This document shows, in pieces, positions 32,116-54,252 of a DNA stretch of 58,436 bases. Each line of letters opens with the position of its first letter. Position 1 is the stretch's first letter. The position numbers and the translations under genes are program-made. This DNA comes from an uncultured Woeseiaceae bacterium (GTDB taxonomy: Bacteria; Pseudomonadota; Gammaproteobacteria; Steroidobacterales; Woeseiaceae). The notes beneath the pieces were generated by a model. That model did not search any database and was not told the origin of the DNA. It saw nothing but the letters and a program-made list of their open reading frames with translations. The DNA lies in assembly GCA_905480255.1 (NCBI GenBank), contig CAJQPR010000038.1:1-58436 (forward strand). The letters are read 5' to 3'.

Positions 32116-33774
32116 TTACATCCCCGAATAGTTTGGCCCACCGCCGCCTTCCGGAACCGTCCAAACGATGTTTTGTTTGGGATCCTTGATGTCGCAGGTC
32201 TTGCAGTGAACGCAATTCTGCGCATTGATTTGAAACCGCGGTTCACCACCGTCATCGATAACCTCGTACACCCCGGCCGGACAGTACCGCTGTGCGGGCT
32301 CGCCGAATTCCGGCAGGTTGTATGAAATCGGGATCGACTCGTCTTTCAGCCTGAGATGTGAAGGCTGATCTTCCTCATGATTGGTACTCGAAAGATACAC
32401 GGACGACAGTCGATCGAAAGTGATGACACCATCTGGAGCCGGATATTCAATAGCTGGGGCATTGTCAGCTTTATCCAGTGACTCGTTGTCACGGTCTTTG
32501 TTGCGTAGTGTGAATGGCAATTTGCCGCGGAATATATTCTGGTCAATGAATGTAAACGCAGCGCCAAGGAACGTACCGAACCGGTGCAGAGCCGGACCGA
32601 AGTTTCTCGCCCGATACATCTCGTCGTGAACCCAGGACTCTTTGACCGCATTTCCAAAGGCAGTCAGATCTGAATTCGCCGAGCCGTTTGCAAGCGCCTC
32701 AAATACGCTCTCGGCTGCCAGCATCCCGGTCTTTATCGCGGTATGTGCACCCTTAATCTTCACGCCATTCAGAAAACCCGCGCCGCAACCAACGAGAACG
32801 CCGCCAGGGAATGTCAGTTTTGGCAAAGACTGGAGACCACCTTTGTTGACTGCTCGCGCTCCATAGCCGATCCGCTTGCCGCCTTCGAGGTAACCGCGAA
32901 TCTTCGGGTGCAGCTTCCAACGCTGAAATTCCTGGAACGGCGACAAATTAGGATTATCGTAGTTGAGCGCCACAATGAAACCCAAAAATACCTGGTTGTT
33001 CCCGGCGTGATACAGAAAGCCGCCACCCTCGGTTCGATTGTTCAGTGGCCAACCCATCGTATGCACCACGAGGCCTTCCTGGTGCTTTTCAGGATCGATC
33101 TCCCAGACCTCTTTCACGCCAAGACCGTAATGTTGCGGGTCCGCGTCCTCTCTCAGGTTGAACTTGTCCATCAGTTCTTCGCCGAGGTTACCGCGTACCC
33201 CTTCGGCAAAAATCGTGTATTTGCCGAGCAGCTCGTAACCGCGCTGGTAGCCGGGCTTTTTTTCGCCGTTTTTACCAACACCCATGTCGCTGGTCGCAAC
33301 GCCGGTAACCTGCCCTGCCTCGTTGTACAGAACTTCCGACGCGGCAAAGCCCGGAAAGATGTTGATCCCGGACTCTTCTGCCTTTTCACCGAGCCACTGG
33401 CACAACCTGCCGAGGCTAATAATATAATTGCCCTTGTTGTGCATGGGCGATGGCAGGAACATTCCAGGCACAGGCATCGATTTTCGCTCACTCGTCAGGT
33501 AGTGAATGATGTCTTTGCTGACGGCAGTCTGGACGGGTGCACCCTCTTCCTTCCAGTTCGGAAACAGCTCATCGAGACCGCGCGGCTCGAAGACATTTCC
33601 CGAAAGAATGTGGGCGCCGATTTCAGAGCCTTTTTCGACCACAACCACAGAAATCTCGCTGCCTGCCGTCTCCGCCAGCTGTGCCAGTCGGCACGCCGCA
33701 GCAAGCCCGGCAGCCCCGCCACCGACGATGACAACGTCAAATTCCATGGATTCCCGTTCTGCTTGTTCGGACAT
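32116..33774 (-). CDS. Electron transfer flavoprotein-ubiquinone oxidoreductase
   Basis: ETF-QO passes electrons from ETF, and so from acyl-CoA dehydrogenases, to ubiquinone at the membrane. The 552 residues match the family. The FAD-binding GGGAAGLAAACRL is at about 18-30, with EKGSEIGAHILSGNVFEPR, the ubiquinone-binding region, and a C-terminal 4Fe-4S domain with YCPAGVYE and CVHCKTCDIKDPKQNI. The gene stands alone on the minus strand, convergent with the SDR. It functionally links the two acyl-CoA dehydrogenases at 54389-56737 to respiration. Confidence 0.97.
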   Translation of the reverse strand: MSEQAERESMEFDVVIVGGGAAGLAAACRLAQLAETAGSEISVVVVEKGSEIGAHILSGNVFEPRGLDELFPNWKEEGAPVQTAVSKDIIHYLTSERKSMPVPGMFLPSPMHNKGNYIISLGRLCQWLGEKAEESGINIFPGFAASEVLYNEAGQVTGVATSDMGVGKNGEKKPGYQRGYELLGKYTIFAEGVRGNLGEELMDKFNLREDADPQHYGLGVKEVWEIDPEKHQEGLVVHTMGWPLNNRTEGGGFLYHAGNNQVFLGFIVALNYDNPNLSPFQEFQRWKLHPKIRGYLEGGKRIGYGARAVNKGGLQSLPKLTFPGGVLVGCGAGFLNGVKIKGAHTAIKTGMLAAESVFEALANGSANSDLTAFGNAVKESWVHDEMYRARNFGPALHRFGTFLGAAFTFIDQNIFRGKLPFTLRNKDRDNESLDKADNAPAIEYPAPDGVITFDRLSSVYLSSTNHEEDQPSHLRLKDESIPISYNLPEFGEPAQRYCPAGVYEVIDDGGEPRFQINAQNCVHCKTCDIKDPKQNIVWTVPEGGGGPNYSGM

Positions 33775-33876
33775 TGTTTCTTCTTCTTTAGGTCAGTGCC
33801 GGCTCATTCTAGCAAAACAGCGGTTTTTCACCGTACCAAAATCGATGTAGGCTCTCGGCACGATGGCGACTTCCCT

Positions 33877-34965
33877 GTGACAATCAAAGCTCAATACGAG
33901 GCTGTAGTGGCTGCCGGGACGATCGTTACTGACGACGCTCAACGCCGTGTGGTCGACAAACTCGATGCATTGCAGCTGAGAATAGCCGCACAGAGTACGC
34001 TCAGAGCAAAAATCAGTCGCCTGCTTTCGGGGAAAAGGGAGCGTCCAGCGCCCAGAGGGATCTACTTGTGGGGTGGCGTCGGTCGGGGCAAGACATTCCT
34101 GATGGATCTGTTCTACGGCTCACTCGAAATCGAAGCGAAAAGGCGAATTCACTTCCACCGCATGATGAGTGAAGTTCACGCCCGGCTGAAAAATATCGAG
34201 GATACAGAGGACCCACTCGACCTGGTCGCAGCGAATATTGCTGCAGAAACATCCGTGCTTTGTTTTGACGAGTTCTTTGTCAGCGATATCGGCGACGCGA
34301 TGATTCTTGGCCGGCTGCTGGACGGGCTATTCCAACGTGGCGTCATTCTGGTCACAACTTCAAATGCCCGGCCTGCAGAACTCTATCGTGATGGCCTGCA
34401 ACGCCAGAGCTTTCTCCCTGCTATCGACGCCCTGGAAAGACATACCGACGTGATTGAGCTGGACGGCGGCACCGACTACCGCCTGCAGCTATTCGAGGAG
34501 GCGGGAACGTATCTGATGTCTTCTGACAATTCCACCGAAATAAAGCTGGATCACTACTTCAATGGCATCGCGTCGGGTGAAAAGCTTGAGAACCACAGGA
34601 TCGAGGTCCTCGGCCGGGATATTCAAACACGCCGTTGCGCCAAAGGCATAGCCTGGTTCGACTTCATGGAGCTCTGCGATGGACCGAGAAGCCAGGAGGA
34701 TTACATCGAGATCGCCCGCTGGTACCCCACCGTGATCGTATCGGGTTTGCCTGAACTGGGCATGGAAAATGAAAACGCTGCCCGGCGTTTCATTGCCCTT
34801 GTCGACGAGTTTTATGACCGCAAGGTCAAACTGGTCGTTTCGGCGGAGGCCCCGGCAGACTCACTGTATAAAGGGGCTCGCCTTGAATTCGAATTCCAGC
34901 GGACTGCGAGCCGCCTGATCGAGATGCAATCCGCGGCATATCTGCACGCCCCACACCTCGCCTGA
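33877..34965 (+). CDS. zapE: Cell division protein ZapE (AFG1-family ATPase)
   Basis: ZapE is an ATPase associated with the Z-ring under stress. The start is taken as GTG 33877 (362 residues; E. coli has 375). The same frame is open to 32743, but that part is antisense to ETF-QO and has no in-frame ATG near the domain start. Walker A GGVGRGKT is at 66-73 and Walker B is in LCFDEFFVSD. IHFHRMMSEVH, VTTSNARP and RRCAKGIAWFDFMELC are family signatures. No strong ribosome-binding site is visible, so the start could lie slightly elsewhere. It is divergent from ETF-QO. Confidence 0.93.
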   Translation: MTIKAQYEAVVAAGTIVTDDAQRRVVDKLDALQLRIAAQSTLRAKISRLLSGKRERPAPRGIYLWGGVGRGKTFLMDLFYGSLEIEAKRRIHFHRMMSEVHARLKNIEDTEDPLDLVAANIAAETSVLCFDEFFVSDIGDAMILGRLLDGLFQRGVILVTTSNARPAELYRDGLQRQSFLPAIDALERHTDVIELDGGTDYRLQLFEEAGTYLMSSDNSTEIKLDHYFNGIASGEKLENHRIEVLGRDIQTRRCAKGIAWFDFMELCDGPRSQEDYIEIARWYPTVIVSGLPELGMENENAARRFIALVDEFYDRKVKLVVSAEAPADSLYKGARLEFEFQRTASRLIEMQSAAYLHAPHLA

Positions 34966-40521: not shown

Positions 40522-41265
40522 ATGTCTGGAAAATTGATACTTTGCCGTCACGGCCAAAGCGAGTGGAATCTTAAGAACCTGTTTACCGGGTGGCACGACG
40601 TAGATTTGACTGATAAAGGCGTAGAAGAAGCAAAAGAAGCCGGCCGGCTTCTCGGCGAACTCGACTACAACATCGACATCGCATTCACATCTGTCCTTAA
40701 ACGCGCCATCAGAACGTTGTGGCTGATGCTCGATGAAATGGACCGTATGTGGATCCCGGTTGTTCGGGACTGGCGATTGAATGAGCGCCATTACGGCGCT
40801 CTGCAGGGATTGAACAAGGCCGAAACAGCCGAAAAATATGGTGACGAGCAGGTACATGTCTGGCGACGAAGCTACGCCACTCCACCACCGGCACTTGAAC
40901 CTGACGATGAAAGACATCCTTCCCACGATGAGCGCTACCGGGGAATCGCTGATTTGCCGGCCACAGAATCACTCGCGACCACTCTGGATCGCGTTGTCCC
41001 GTGCTGGGAGCAGATTATTGTTCCCGAGCTAAGAAATGGCCGGAACGTGTTGATCGCTGCTCACGGTAATAGTCTGCGGGCCCTGGTAAAGATGCTTGAC
41101 GATGTGTCCGAAGAGGAAATCACCGGGTTCAACATACCCACCGGCGTACCCATTGCCTATGAACTTGATGACAACCTGAAACCTGTTTCGCGCGAGTTTC
41201 TGGGCGATCCGGAGGCTGTTGCGGCTGCCGCCGCTGCAGTCGCGAACCAGGCCAAGGCGAAATGA
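40522..41265 (+). CDS. gpmA: 2,3-bisphosphoglycerate-dependent phosphoglycerate mutase
   Basis: GpmA interconverts 3- and 2-phosphoglycerate in glycolysis and gluconeogenesis. The 247 residues match the family. His10 in [24 protein letters not shown] is the phosphohistidine; [28 protein letters not shown] and [14 protein letters not shown] supply the remaining active site. The tail ends in a stretch of Ala (about 230-240). It follows the glutamate dehydrogenase gene by 28 nt, possibly cotranscribed. Confidence 0.97.
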
Positions 41266-41311
41266 CCCGGAGTTCTGATACCGCAGCGCAGGTGTCCTAG
41301 AGGCGCGCGCA

Positions 41312-42061
41312 ATTCGCTTCCTCACGACAATCCTCTGCCCGATTTTTGCAGTCGGGCTCGCCAACGCCCAAAACGCCGATATCCTGGCCACGGCCCCTCC
41401 CACCTCGATAGTCCTTGAGACCGACTACATCGGCAATGATGACTTGCCGAATTGTGACTGGTACACCCCGGCGGCCGAATTTCTAACTTCGGAAGAGCCG
41501 GAAAAATTCGGCCGGGCCTGTCGAGTAAATATTCGGATCCGAGGCGCCATTAATCGTGATGGCGCAAAGTTGTTTGCGGAATTGATTTCAAGCCTTAAAG
41601 ATTTTGGCTATCAACCCACGTCGATTGTACTCAACTCCCGCGGCGGAGATGCGGATGCGGCAATCTCAATTGCCCGTATTATTCGCGATACCGAAGTTTT
41701 CGACAGCATGCAGGTGGAGACCCGAATCGACGAGAGTTATGACGCTGTATGCTTCAGCGCCTGTATTGTTATTTTCTCGGCCGGTTATCAGCGGAGCCTG
41801 GACTTCAATATCAACGGCGACAACAATCTGCCATCGCGGCTGGGTATGCACGGCCCCGGGCAGTTCGACCGAAGCCAGGCCAGTTATGACACGTCACCAG
41901 GCAACTCCGAAATCATGCGCATAGGCCGCCGACTGAAGGAATACTTTCGTGACATCGGTGTCGCTGAAGAATTTGTAGATGACATGTTCAATGTGCCGTT
42001 TGACGAAATACACCTGCTCACCCGCCAGGAGCTGATCAGCTACGGTCTTTATTCGGATTAG
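41312..42061 (+). CDS. Periplasmic ClpP/crotonase-fold protein, probable ATT start
   Basis: The coding frame is open from 41279 to 42061, but no ATG or GTG is in frame before the conserved part; the first standard start is a TTG at 41444, which cuts off an evident signal peptide. Reading from ATT at 41312, 8 nt after AGAGG, gives 249 residues opening with a typical export signal (RFLTTILCPIFAVGLANA, cleavage near Gln20). The conserved part has SIVLNSRGGDADAAISIARI and CFSACIVIFSAG with a candidate nucleophile Ser149, then LGMHGPG and RQELISYGLY. This resembles COG3904-type ClpP-fold periplasmic proteins. Function is unknown. A point mutation of ATG is an alternative to a true ATT start. Confidence 0.7.
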   Translation: MRFLTTILCPIFAVGLANAQNADILATAPPTSIVLETDYIGNDDLPNCDWYTPAAEFLTSEEPEKFGRACRVNIRIRGAINRDGAKLFAELISSLKDFGYQPTSIVLNSRGGDADAAISIARIIRDTEVFDSMQVETRIDESYDAVCFSACIVIFSAGYQRSLDFNINGDNNLPSRLGMHGPGQFDRSQASYDTSPGNSEIMRIGRRLKEYFRDIGVAEEFVDDMFNVPFDEIHLLTRQELISYGLYSD

Positions 42062-42073
42062 TGGCGGACGCCA

Positions 42074-42976
42074 TCACTCCTGTTTTTTCGGATCAGAACG
42101 TTTCGTATGCGTTGCGTCTTCTGCGAGGACTCGTACCAGGCCCTCCTGGGTGCTCGATGCCACGAGAGCACCTGCGCGATTGAAAAACTGGCCCCGGGCA
42201 AACCCTCTTGCGCCGGATGAATTCGGGCTGTCCATTGAATAGAGCAGCCAATCATCGACGCGGACATCACGATGAAACCACAGAGCGTGATCAAGACTCG
42301 CCATCATTACCCGACCCTGGCCGAATGGCAGACCATGCGGCAATGTACTGGTTCCTAGTAGCTCATAGTCAGACACGTAAGCAAGCAGGTTTTGATGAAG
42401 ACTTTGCTCATCCGGCAGCGCGTCTACCGTTTTTATCCAGACATGCTTCACGGCCGGTCTCGGTTCCAGTGACATGAATTCCATTGGCTGTACCGGCCTG
42501 AATTCGAAAGGTCGCTTGATCGTCAGGTAGCGATGCATTTTTTCCGGGATTTTATCGAGCATCTGTGGCGCGACTTCTGTCAGATCCGGCAGGCCATCAG
42601 GGCCTTCGACTTCCGGCATTGCCGAATGGTGTTCAAGGCCGTGCTCGGGCACCTGGAAGGACGCTGCAAGGTTAAAAATCGGCCGGCCATGCTGAATGGC
42701 AACCACCCGTCGGACGGAAAAACTCCCCCCATCGCGCGAACGATCTACATCGTAAATGATTGGCGCGCTCATATCGCCACGACGGAGAAAATACGCGTGC
42801 AGGGAATGCGCACGCCGTCCTTCAACGGTGTGGTGCGCTGCCGATAATGCCTGACCGAGAACCTGCCCACCGAAAACCTGCGCGCCGCCTATGTCGCGGC
42901 TCTCGCCCCGGAATATATTATCTTCGATGCGCTCAAGCTTCAGGAGATGAAGCAGGTCCTTTAAGACTGGATGCAT
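42074..42976 (-). CDS. tesB: Acyl-CoA thioesterase II (TesB)
   Basis: TesB hydrolyses medium- to long-chain acyl-CoA. The 300 residues form the double hot-dog fold: FRGESRDIGGAQVFGGQVLGQAL opens the first half, and ASLDHALWFHRD with SPNSSGARGFARGQFFNRAG carries the second. The Asp/Ser/Gln catalytic set is recognisable (LDH, SSGARG, STQEGLVR). The short tail is basic. It is the last of three co-oriented genes (acyl-CoA ligase, SDR-like, TesB), 9 nt after the SDR-like gene. Confidence 0.94.
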   Translation of the reverse strand: MHPVLKDLLHLLKLERIEDNIFRGESRDIGGAQVFGGQVLGQALSAAHHTVEGRRAHSLHAYFLRRGDMSAPIIYDVDRSRDGGSFSVRRVVAIQHGRPIFNLAASFQVPEHGLEHHSAMPEVEGPDGLPDLTEVAPQMLDKIPEKMHRYLTIKRPFEFRPVQPMEFMSLEPRPAVKHVWIKTVDALPDEQSLHQNLLAYVSDYELLGTSTLPHGLPFGQGRVMMASLDHALWFHRDVRVDDWLLYSMDSPNSSGARGFARGQFFNRAGALVASSTQEGLVRVLAEDATHTKRSDPKKQE

Positions 42977-52128: not shown

Positions 52129-52718
52129 GATGCGAGGTCTATGTCGGTACCGGCGAGGTCTTCCGGCGTATTGATGTTATGCAATGCGCCAGGATTCGGC
52201 TGAGTCAGCAGGCAGGTCGGCGAGTTGATCAATATCTTGCGCGGGCAATTAAAGCCATCTTTGACAAAGCTGTCGATAATTGCCCTTGAGGCAGGCCGGT
52301 AAATTGCACACAAGGGCTCCGGCATATCATCGACGACGCTGCGAAACGCCGTGGCCGGATGATCAGCCGAAGCGTTTTCCAGAAGATAGTCAATTGTGCT
52401 TTCATCGATATTAGGCAGATCGCATGCCAACACCAGCCAACTGACTTCTGTCTCCATATCCATCGCGGACAGTATTCCAGCGATTGGCCCCATGTCCTCG
52501 TAGCGATCAACAATTTGATCAAAGTCTCTGCGCACCGGGTCATTCTCCTGGCTGGCTGATGTTGAAACAAACACCCGATCAACGTGAGCGGTGAGAAGCT
52601 TTACTGCTCGCCCCAGCTGAGTCTCTCCGCCAGACACCAGCGCTGCTTTGTCGCTGCCCATCCGGCGACTCTTGCCGCCTGCCAGCACCAGGCCATAGAC
52701 CTGCTCAGGCACTGTCAC
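52125..52718 (-). CDS. mobA: Molybdenum cofactor guanylyltransferase MobA
   Basis: MobA attaches GMP to molybdopterin to form the bis-MGD precursor used by DMSO-reductase-family enzymes. The 197 residues show GLVLAGGKSRRMGSDKAAL at 9-27, ACDLPNI as the metal-binding motif, and the C-terminal INTPEDLA. It overlaps moaC upstream by 14 nt and moaD downstream by 4 nt. Together with mocA the window encodes both the GMP- and CMP-type final steps. Confidence 0.93.
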   Translation of the reverse strand: MTVPEQVYGLVLAGGKSRRMGSDKAALVSGGETQLGRAVKLLTAHVDRVFVSTSASQENDPVRRDFDQIVDRYEDMGPIAGILSAMDMETEVSWLVLACDLPNIDESTIDYLLENASADHPATAFRSVVDDMPEPLCAIYRPASRAIIDSFVKDGFNCPRKILINSPTCLLTQPNPGALHNINTPEDLAGTDIDLAS

Positions 52719-53187
52719 GAAAATAGTCCTCTTTACCGCCGGTTTTCGATATCAGCCGTGTCTCACTAATGACAATCTCGTGAGACAGAGCCTTGCACAT
52801 ATCGTAAATCGTGAGAGCCGCAACGCTTGCGCCAGTCAGCGCCTCCATCTCCACGCCGGTCCTGTGATGAACCTTACATTTGCAGTCGACGACGGCCCTT
52901 TGTTGGCTATCCAATTCAATCGTGATCTTACAGTTGTCGAGCCCAAGTGGATGACAGAATGGAATGAGCTCGTGAGTTCGTTTCGCCGCCATGACGCCAG
53001 CAATAACGGCAGTCACGAAAACAGGCCCTTTTGCAGTTTCTATATCACCGTCCGAAAATCTCTGTGCGACGTCCGCCGGAAACTCCACGATAGTCCTGGC
53101 GTGAGCCTCCCGATCGCTCGGCGTTTTTTTGCTGACATCAACCATCGTTGGACGATTGCTCTTATCGACATGCGAAAGCCCGCTCAT
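52705..53187 (-). CDS. moaC: Cyclic pyranopterin monophosphate synthase MoaC
   Basis: MoaC converts the MoaA product 3',8-cyclo-GTP to cyclic pyranopterin phosphate. The 160 residues match the family: MSGLSHVDKSNRPTMVDVS at the start, AAKRTHELIPFCHPLGLDNC with the catalytic residues, and VEMEALTGASVAALTIYDMCKA. It lies 3 nt after moaA, and its end overlaps mobA by 14 nt. Confidence 0.97.
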   Translation of the reverse strand: MSGLSHVDKSNRPTMVDVSKKTPSDREAHARTIVEFPADVAQRFSDGDIETAKGPVFVTAVIAGVMAAKRTHELIPFCHPLGLDNCKITIELDSQQRAVVDCKCKVHHRTGVEMEALTGASVAALTIYDMCKALSHEIVISETRLISKTGGKEDYFRDSA

Positions 53188-53190
53188 CCC

Positions 53191-54252
53191 TTAGCCACCC
53201 ATCCTGTACATTTCGACTTTGTTGACCAGCGGTTTTTCGACCGGTCCCGGTTTACGCAATTCACTGTAGCGATCCTTTCGTTTTAGCCAGACGCGCGTCA
53301 GGATATTTGCAATTGCATCGTCATCCGATCCATCTCTTAGCGCCGTGCGCAAGTCTGTGCCGTTGGTTGCAAACAGGCAGGTATAAAGCGTCCCGTCCGC
53401 GGACAGGCGCGCCCGGCTACAAGAACCACAAAAGGGTTCCGTGACGGATGAAATAAAACCCACTTCACCCTTGCCATCAAGATACTCATAACGCCGCGCC
53501 ACTTCACCCGGATAATTTTTACCGACAGCCCGCACGGGCCACCTGGTCTGGATCATTTTAAGGGTTTCTTTTGACGGTACGACTTGCTCCATCGTCCAGT
53601 CATTGCGATTTCCGACATCCATGAATTCGATAAGGCGGACGATATGCCCTGTGCCGCGGAAACGGTCCAGAACATCGAGGACCGTGTGGTCGTTCACGCC
53701 GCGCTGGACCACGACATTGATCTTTATCGGCGACAGGCCGGCCTGCTCAGCAGCCGCGATGCCAGTAAATACTTTATCGAGATCACCCCGATTTCCGCTC
53801 ATTGAGCGAAAGACTTCCTCATTCAGGCTATCCAGGCTTATGGTGACACGCTGCAATCCTGCCTTTGCCAGGGCTTCGGCAATCGGAGCCAGCAGCACAC
53901 CATTCGTTGTCAGCGCCAGATCGTCAACCCCGTCGAGTTCCGCCAGGCGCCCAACAAGGCTCGCAACCTTTTTGTCGAGCAGCGGTTCCCCGCCGGTAAT
54001 CCGCAACTTCGTTACGCCAAGCCCGACTGCAATCGAAGCAACGCGAAAGATCTCGTCATGGCTTAGACGAGCTGTCTTTGAAAGAAACTGGTAGTCCTCG
54101 GTGTACTCTGATTCCGGCATGCAATAGGGACAGCGAAAATTGCAGCGATCAAGAAGCGAAATCCTCAGGTCCTGCATCGGACGGTCGAATGCGTCTGTGA
54201 CGAATGCATCGCCACCAGCAGACCGCAGATCCTGTTCTCTTCCGTCTTCCAT
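53191..54252 (-). CDS. moaA: GTP 3',8-cyclase MoaA
   Basis: MoaA is a radical SAM enzyme that starts molybdopterin synthesis from GTP. From the ATG at 54250-54252 it has 353 residues; a GTG 39 nt upstream is also in frame. The SAM cluster CNFRCPYC is in SLLDRCNFRCPYCMPE, and the second C-terminal cluster is in EPFCGSCSRARL with a third Cys in LYTCLF. TGGEPLLDKKV, TNGVLL and SLDSL are present. The final Gly-Gly expected for activity is present (MYRMGG). It heads moaA-moaC-mobA-moaD-moaE. Confidence 0.97.
   Translation of the reverse strand: MEDGREQDLRSAGGDAFVTDAFDRPMQDLRISLLDRCNFRCPYCMPESEYTEDYQFLSKTARLSHDEIFRVASIAVGLGVTKLRITGGEPLLDKKVASLVGRLAELDGVDDLALTTNGVLLAPIAEALAKAGLQRVTISLDSLNEEVFRSMSGNRGDLDKVFTGIAAAEQAGLSPIKINVVVQRGVNDHTVLDVLDRFRGTGHIVRLIEFMDVGNRNDWTMEQVVPSKETLKMIQTRWPVRAVGKNYPGEVARRYEYLDGKGEVGFISSVTEPFCGSCSRARLSADGTLYTCLFATNGTDLRTALRDGSDDDAIANILTRVWLKRKDRYSELRKPGPVEKPLVNKVEMYRMGG

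Follow-up and report, generated by a model that had tools for sequence, protein, structure and literature searches.

A ClpP-fold gene with no common start codon ahead of its predicted signal peptide and a candidate AUU start in an uncultured Woeseiaceae bacterium

Introduction

Where does translation begin in a gene whose conserved N-terminus is preceded by none of the common start codons? The question is raised by a ClpP-fold gene of an uncultured Woeseiaceae bacterium (assembly GCA_905480255.1, contig CAJQPR010000038.1), located between what we take to be a gpmA-like phosphoglycerate mutase gene and, on the opposite strand, a gene that is presumably a tesB-like acyl-CoA thioesterase. The whole 58,436-nt stretch analysed here is referred to as the window and its source genome as G000.

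Experimentally supported non-canonical starts provide a frame of reference. In Staphylococcus aureus, cvfC1 (AUU) and ccpN (AUA) have starts that were mapped by ribosome profiling, are conserved and are accompanied by extended Shine–Dalgarno sequences (SDs); expression was ~10% of the AUG level in poor medium and, for one gene, reached as much as 30% when the medium was rich (PMC13009471). Streptomyces sigR starts at GTC, and this start is repressed by IF3 (PMC5472188). In vitro, where the initiator pair is mismatched, as in AUU/CAU, more IF3 leaves a smaller share of full-length product (PMC10158994). Reconstructed switches to AUU are very rare, a published count giving 1 in 61,358 for AUG to AUU and 1 in 5,080 for GUG to AUU (PMC5622118), and annotation bias may lower these counts.

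Results

The open frame and its candidate start codon

Downstream of an in-frame TGA at 41276–41278, an open frame runs from 41279 to 42061 on the forward strand, and its first ATG, GTG or TTG is the TTG at 41444, which would give a product of 205 aa. A first-pass annotation, made from the sequence alone, had reported the lack of a common start ahead of the signal peptide and had proposed that an ATT at 41312, with AGAGG 8 nt upstream, opens it; as sequence observations, both were confirmed (Table 1). From this ATT the product would read M-RFLTTILCPIFAVGLANA^QNADIL, with residues 1–19 forming the signal peptide and the mature protein beginning with the Q at 41369. No ATG, GTG or TTG is compatible with the conserved N-terminus, as would be expected where an AUU start is functional, and the ATT at 41312 is the best candidate among the table-11 codons left, if the gene is expressed.

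Two other candidates, ATC at 41330 and ATT at 41342, were rejected by reading only, as either would leave a signal peptide that is too short and uncharged. Extension of gpmA by frame-shift or read-through was also rejected: the gpmA frame ends at 41265 and the open frame begins at 41279, with no overlap. Between the two genes lies a 12-codon ORF in another frame, whose ATG at 41262 overlaps the gpmA stop (ATGA) and whose TAG at 41298–41300 runs into the GAGG.

Table 1. Coordinates of the ClpP-fold gene, its candidate translation signals and its neighbours (positions in the window)
Feature	Position	Strand	Basis or remark
Upstream neighbour, phosphoglycerate mutase, gpmA-like	40522–41265	+	Presumed identity
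12-codon ORF, other frame	41262–41300	+	Possible reinitiation leader, or chance
Open frame of the ClpP-fold gene, stop to stop	41279–42061	+	No ATG/GTG/TTG before 41444
AGAGG	41299–41303	+	GAGG 41300–41303 fits the SD consensus; spaced 8 nt from the ATT
ATT, best candidate initiation codon	41312–41314	+	22 residues before the conserved DIL
Predicted signal peptide, 19 codons, cleavage ANA^Q	41312–41368	+	By reading and rule-based test
Mature ClpP-fold domain, 230 aa	41369–42058	+	Alignment, predicted model, structure and profile matches
Conserved coding sequence ahead of the TTG (DILxxxPxTxIxxETxY...)	41378–41443	+	Orthologue comparison
TTG, first common start codon in frame	41444–41446	+	Not the ancestral start, by orthologue comparison
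S-R-G-G, in register with ClpP S-x-G-G	41636–41647	+	Alignments
C-F-S-A-C motif; Ser codon 41756–41758 in nucleophile register	41750–41764	+	Alignments
His (G-M-H), in register with the ClpP catalytic His	41849–41851	+	Alignments
Downstream convergent neighbour, acyl-CoA thioesterase, tesB-like	42074–42976	−	Presumed identity

Fold and family of the encoded protein

The protein is confidently predicted to adopt the ClpP fold, as the first-pass annotation had suggested, with a predicted model, structure matches and a profile alignment all pointing the same way. An AlphaFold2 model built from a 13-sequence alignment reached a pLDDT of 89.3 and replaced a first model from three sequences (pLDDT 61), for which the best Foldseek match was already ClpP. 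With VIA-align the best match was ClpP1 (9uxt_A; Z 14.5, rmsd 3.2, 157 aligned residues), and the 50 matches listed were ClpP entries; the best Foldseek match (E 3.3e-06) was likewise ClpP, and the matches listed included the 1510-N stomatin-specific protease. At the sequence level, Listeria ClpP1 (4jcq/4ryf) was the best profile match (E 1.3e-06), and the alignment to 4jcq places Ser and His in registers that we take to be those of the ClpP nucleophile (codon 41756–41758) and catalytic His (41849–41851). Across the 13-sequence alignment, this Ser, its two flanking Cys and the S-x-G-G were invariant (13/13) and the His was present in 12/13; inspection by eye revealed no single conserved acidic or Asn column for the third triad position (Asp/Asn).

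Family assignment is looser. The window protein itself had no Pfam match, CLP_protease being matched by 2 of the 13 aligned members (best E 7.4e-05), and it scored 17.1 bits against a cut-off of 251 for NCBIfam PRK14512, in both cases short of a family match to ATP-dependent ClpP proper. It thus resembles the ClpP proteases in fold and Ser/His register, but differs from them in being only ~20% identical, probably exported, marked by Cys-x-Ser-Ala-Cys around the nucleophile and unclear in its third catalytic residue. Also comparable are exported ClpP-like proteins of the order and class, for which COG3904 is presumably the family name: ten distant relatives that were read had, by eye, signal- or lipobox-like N-termini and shared CxS(A/S)C and GxHR-type motifs (His in 9/10), whereas their identity is 22–27% and ordinary start codons are available to them. 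ClpP proper works as a tetradecamer with a Clp ATPase; an exported protein of this kind would not meet such a cytoplasmic partner, and its Cys-x-Ser-Ala-Cys could form a disulfide after export.

Among mobile elements, viral contigs yielded no relative and plasmids a single record (31% identity over 40% of the query). PHROGs matches were to families of unknown function or proteases, the best being phrog_30575 (unknown function; E 5.7e-06), and a distant phage relative may exist.

Gene neighbourhood and distribution

Among 12 genomes of the genus, several of them incomplete, two (G000 and G002) contained the ClpP-fold gene, and tesB was found in 11. Both flanks were readable in 10, and in eight of these the gpmA–tesB interval lacks the ClpP-fold gene; they include G008, whose tesB is 90% identical. 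In five genomes (G001, G005, G006, G007 and G008) at most 108 bases separate gpmA from tesB, and in three (G003, G004 and G011) the interval holds an ORF that we take to be gamma-carbonic-anhydrase-like. The G002 orthologue lies between the same two neighbours, and in G017 the order is gpmA, carbonic-anhydrase-like gene, ClpP-fold gene and tesB. The interval may therefore hold the carbonic-anhydrase-like gene, the ClpP-fold gene, both or neither (L027, L029, L031 and L011 versus L025, L028, L030, L032 and L033). Judged from this distribution, the ClpP-fold gene is dispensable.

Orthologues and coding sequence upstream of the TTG

Searches with the G000 protein gave matches in 4 of 149 genomes (G000 itself, G002, G017 and a weak one in G001), and searches with the G002 protein in 3 of 107 genomes of the family; a three-sequence profile matched 9 of 396 order-level and 5 of 369 class-level genomes, the additional ones being distant. 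The weak match in G001 (L012, E 7e-4) later showed no match to the three-sequence profile and was dropped as a relative. The only full orthologues found were those of G002 (same genus, 55% identity) and G017 (same family, 46%, one contig).

In the three-way alignment, invariant columns begin at A30 and D34, 26 and 22 residues before the TTG. Over residues 31–55, differences at codon positions 1/2/3 number 6/7/17 between G000 and G002 and 9/7/14 between G000 and G017. Because conserved residues precede the TTG and the differences fall mostly at third positions, this codon is not, by comparison with the orthologues, the ancestral start; conservation of 41378–41443 in both orthologues likewise indicates that coding begins upstream of it. 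The correction of the N-terminus proposed in the first-pass annotation, which had judged the default start at 41444 to be wrong, is on this evidence right. The alignment supports coding from about 41366–41378 onwards, not from the ATT itself, the signal-peptide stretch (residues 12–30; 10/7/11 differences) being too diverged for a third-position bias to be read. Over residues 31–260, 20 residues are unique to G000 and 30 to G002, the Ser, His and GG are intact in the G000 protein, and no relaxed selection is visible in the alignment on the G000 branch.

Start codons of the relatives, taken to be the earliest common one in frame, are ordinary in both orthologues: ATG in G017 (MRCRLLPALVFLAGAGHAAEVDIL), 21 residues before DIL, and GTG in G002, 29 residues before it, compared with 22 for the ATT of the window. 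An AUU start occurs in neither of these two full orthologues, so that the conservation expected of a functional AUU start was not seen. Nor did the start codon of an orthologue align with the ATT (frame residue 12) in any alignment, the M of G017 falling on frame residue 1, 13 (ungapped) or 15/9 (depending on gap cost) and the V of G002 on residue 7; since the signal peptides are too diverged, the start codons cannot be paired. The first-pass annotation had held that close relatives with an ATG at this codon would point to a mutation or read error. Both orthologues do start ordinarily, but at their level of identity, and with codons unpaired with the ATT, they do not amount to close relatives carrying ATG at the same position. 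By eye, an SD core is missing within reach of either orthologue's start. Initiation of the gene thus looks weak in all three genomes, with the GAGG of the window the best of the three.

Strength of the ribosome-binding site and signal peptide

The SD core at ATT 41312 is 4 nt only, short of the strong or extended SD expected of a functional AUU start. A core of at least 4 nt at a distance of 4–11 nt precedes 15 of the 54 first common start codons of window ORFs (a set that includes shadow ORFs and TTG 41444), and the same holds for 9.3% of the 387 internal ATT codons in the window, so that the ribosome-binding site alone is weak evidence for a start. For the signal peptide, a simple rule made for this analysis was applied to ATT, ATC and ATA codons followed by 35 open codons: 39 of 2530 such codons in the window passed (1.5%), and so did ATT 41312 and the starts of both orthologues, in keeping with the export signal that the first-pass annotation had predicted.

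A predicted fold pairs the GAGG with a downstream CCTC; a regulatory hairpin over the ribosome-binding site was nonetheless rejected, folding being not clearly better than in shuffled sequences (80 nt, z 0.76; 46 nt, z −0.98). A promoter scan of 40900–42400 found none. As a separate observation, five terminator-like hairpins were found, against 1.7 expected from shuffles; all lie at 41544–41837, within the ClpP-fold coding region.

Survey of start codons in the window

All of 54 window ORFs, taken longest first with at most 30% overlap, had a match in neighbouring stretches of eight relatives, and an ORF was flagged when similarity started more than three residues before its first common start. 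This flagged 23 ORFs, all of which were inspected, sixteen of them against at most three relatives each. Apart from the 41279 ORF, 20 of them have a start codon at the corresponding position in one relative or more (one codon off for 13195). The other two, 32674–34962 (+) and 52699–53283 (+), contain in-frame stops in 3/5 and 5/6 of the relatives shown, respectively, and are probably shadows of other-strand genes. The 41279 ORF is the only one of the 23 with conserved coding before its first common start.

Starts of infC in the genus

Genus infC was found above the cut-off in 7 of 12 genomes, and in all seven main-locus copies read (L035–L041) no start is plausible other than an ATC that follows GGAGG by 8 nt. 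One copy has an in-frame TTG, but this lies upstream of the SD. The genus therefore appears to use a non-canonical start at infC, with a stronger, conserved site. The ClpP-fold gene shares with infC an AUH codon behind an SD, whereas the infC sites are kept across the genus with a GGAGG core and the ClpP-fold gene has GAGG with no conservation seen. The ribosome-binding site, called good in the first-pass annotation, is indeed present 8 nt upstream of the ATT, but is mediocre beside this infC start.

In G000 itself, infC gave just a weak sub-cut-off match within another long frame. Stretches of frames of ~980–1000 aa that weakly match the N-terminal part of the IF3 family were seen at G000:C180:19526-19711 (L045) and at L043, L044 and L047–L051. 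A second full-length infC match in G006 (L046, G006:C329), outside the seven counted, possibly represents contamination.

Discussion

We tentatively favour the reading that this is an inherited, dispensable gene for an exported ClpP-fold hydrolase, that the ordinary start is absent in its lineage and that AUU 41312 is the most likely start. If the full-length exported protein is made, initiation would most likely take place at this AUU, guided by the GAGG 8 nt upstream, and would be inefficient, given the poor match of AUU to the initiator tRNA and the bias of IF3 against pairs of this kind. Cleavage by signal peptidase I would follow ANA (41368) and leave a mature domain that would work as a Ser–His hydrolase outside the cytoplasm, in the periplasm. 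AUU use, a low level, an effect of IF3, export and catalysis are what we infer, and the AUU may be a weak, possibly IF3-sensitive start. As to the missing start itself, the AUU reading is about as probable as start-loss and sequence error together, because the anomaly comes from a single draft genome and the ribosome-binding site is ordinary.

A stronger version, in which the gene switched within this genus from an ordinary start to AUU and the level of a periplasmic enzyme is set by IF3 (infC itself being AUC-started), perhaps with leader-helped reinitiation, is rather doubtful.

Somewhat less probable again is a recent start-loss, in which the ordinary start disappeared through a genuine mutation, leaving an early, silent or near-silent pseudogene with an otherwise intact frame. 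The ordinary starts of both orthologues favour it, as does the rarity of AUU switches in the published count (PMC5622118). Absence of the gene at the locus in eight of the ten readable genus genomes, including G008 despite its similar tesB, means that a recent loss of function would be no surprise. Against it, the 260 codons carry no other lesion and G000 has fewer unique residues than G002; however, a recent loss would show no lesion either, which makes the intact frame a weak argument.

Sequence error, unlikely in our estimate, would take the form of an error in the consensus or the assembly, or of a contig of mixed strains, concealing a true ordinary start or a small indel near 41279–41297 that links the signal peptide with a different start, for example ATG 41262. 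The anomaly comes from one assembly only, a draft in 188 contigs with 77.9% completeness; the site adjoins a GCGCGCGC run, an ATG lies over the gpmA stop just upstream in another frame, and none of the 22 further ORFs flagged in the window shares the anomaly. That those 22 ORFs show no start-codon damage also cuts the other way, since the error rate of the window looks low.

Very improbable is a start at TTG 41444, the first common in-frame codon, giving a truncated cytoplasmic protein: such a protein would lack the predicted fold's first strand and residues that both orthologues conserve, the TTG has no SD core of at least 4 nt, both orthologues satisfy the signal-peptide rule, and the N-termini of the ten distant relatives look, by eye, signal- or lipobox-like. 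Equally remote is termination–reinitiation, in which gpmA ribosomes would translate the 12-codon ORF, end at its TAG by the GAGG and reinitiate at the AUU, coupling offsetting the poor codon; only the geometry speaks for it (ATG over the gpmA stop, TAG into GAGG, AUU 12 nt on), and the arrangement is absent in the orthologues, whose ordinary starts lie 16–17 nt from the upstream stop. The short ORF may also be chance.

Set beside known systems, the proposed AUU start resembles that of cvfC1 and ccpN in concerning a gene other than infC, but the S. aureus starts are profiled, conserved and backed by extended SDs, compared with a 4-nt core here (PMC13009471). It resembles sigR as a non-canonical start that annotation overlooks and that sets a low level; the sigR start was proven by mutation and N-terminal sequencing, and it belongs to a regulator, not an exported enzyme (PMC5472188). 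Our literature search did not find an AUU-started exported ClpP-like protein.

If the AUU is used, the gene would join the few genes other than infC that have AUH starts, here on a probably exported enzyme, and would show how an export signal can be lost through start calling. If it is not used, the locus would represent a start-loss caught early. Either way, comparison with relatives can find conserved coding sequence ahead of the first common start, as in the one window analysed here.
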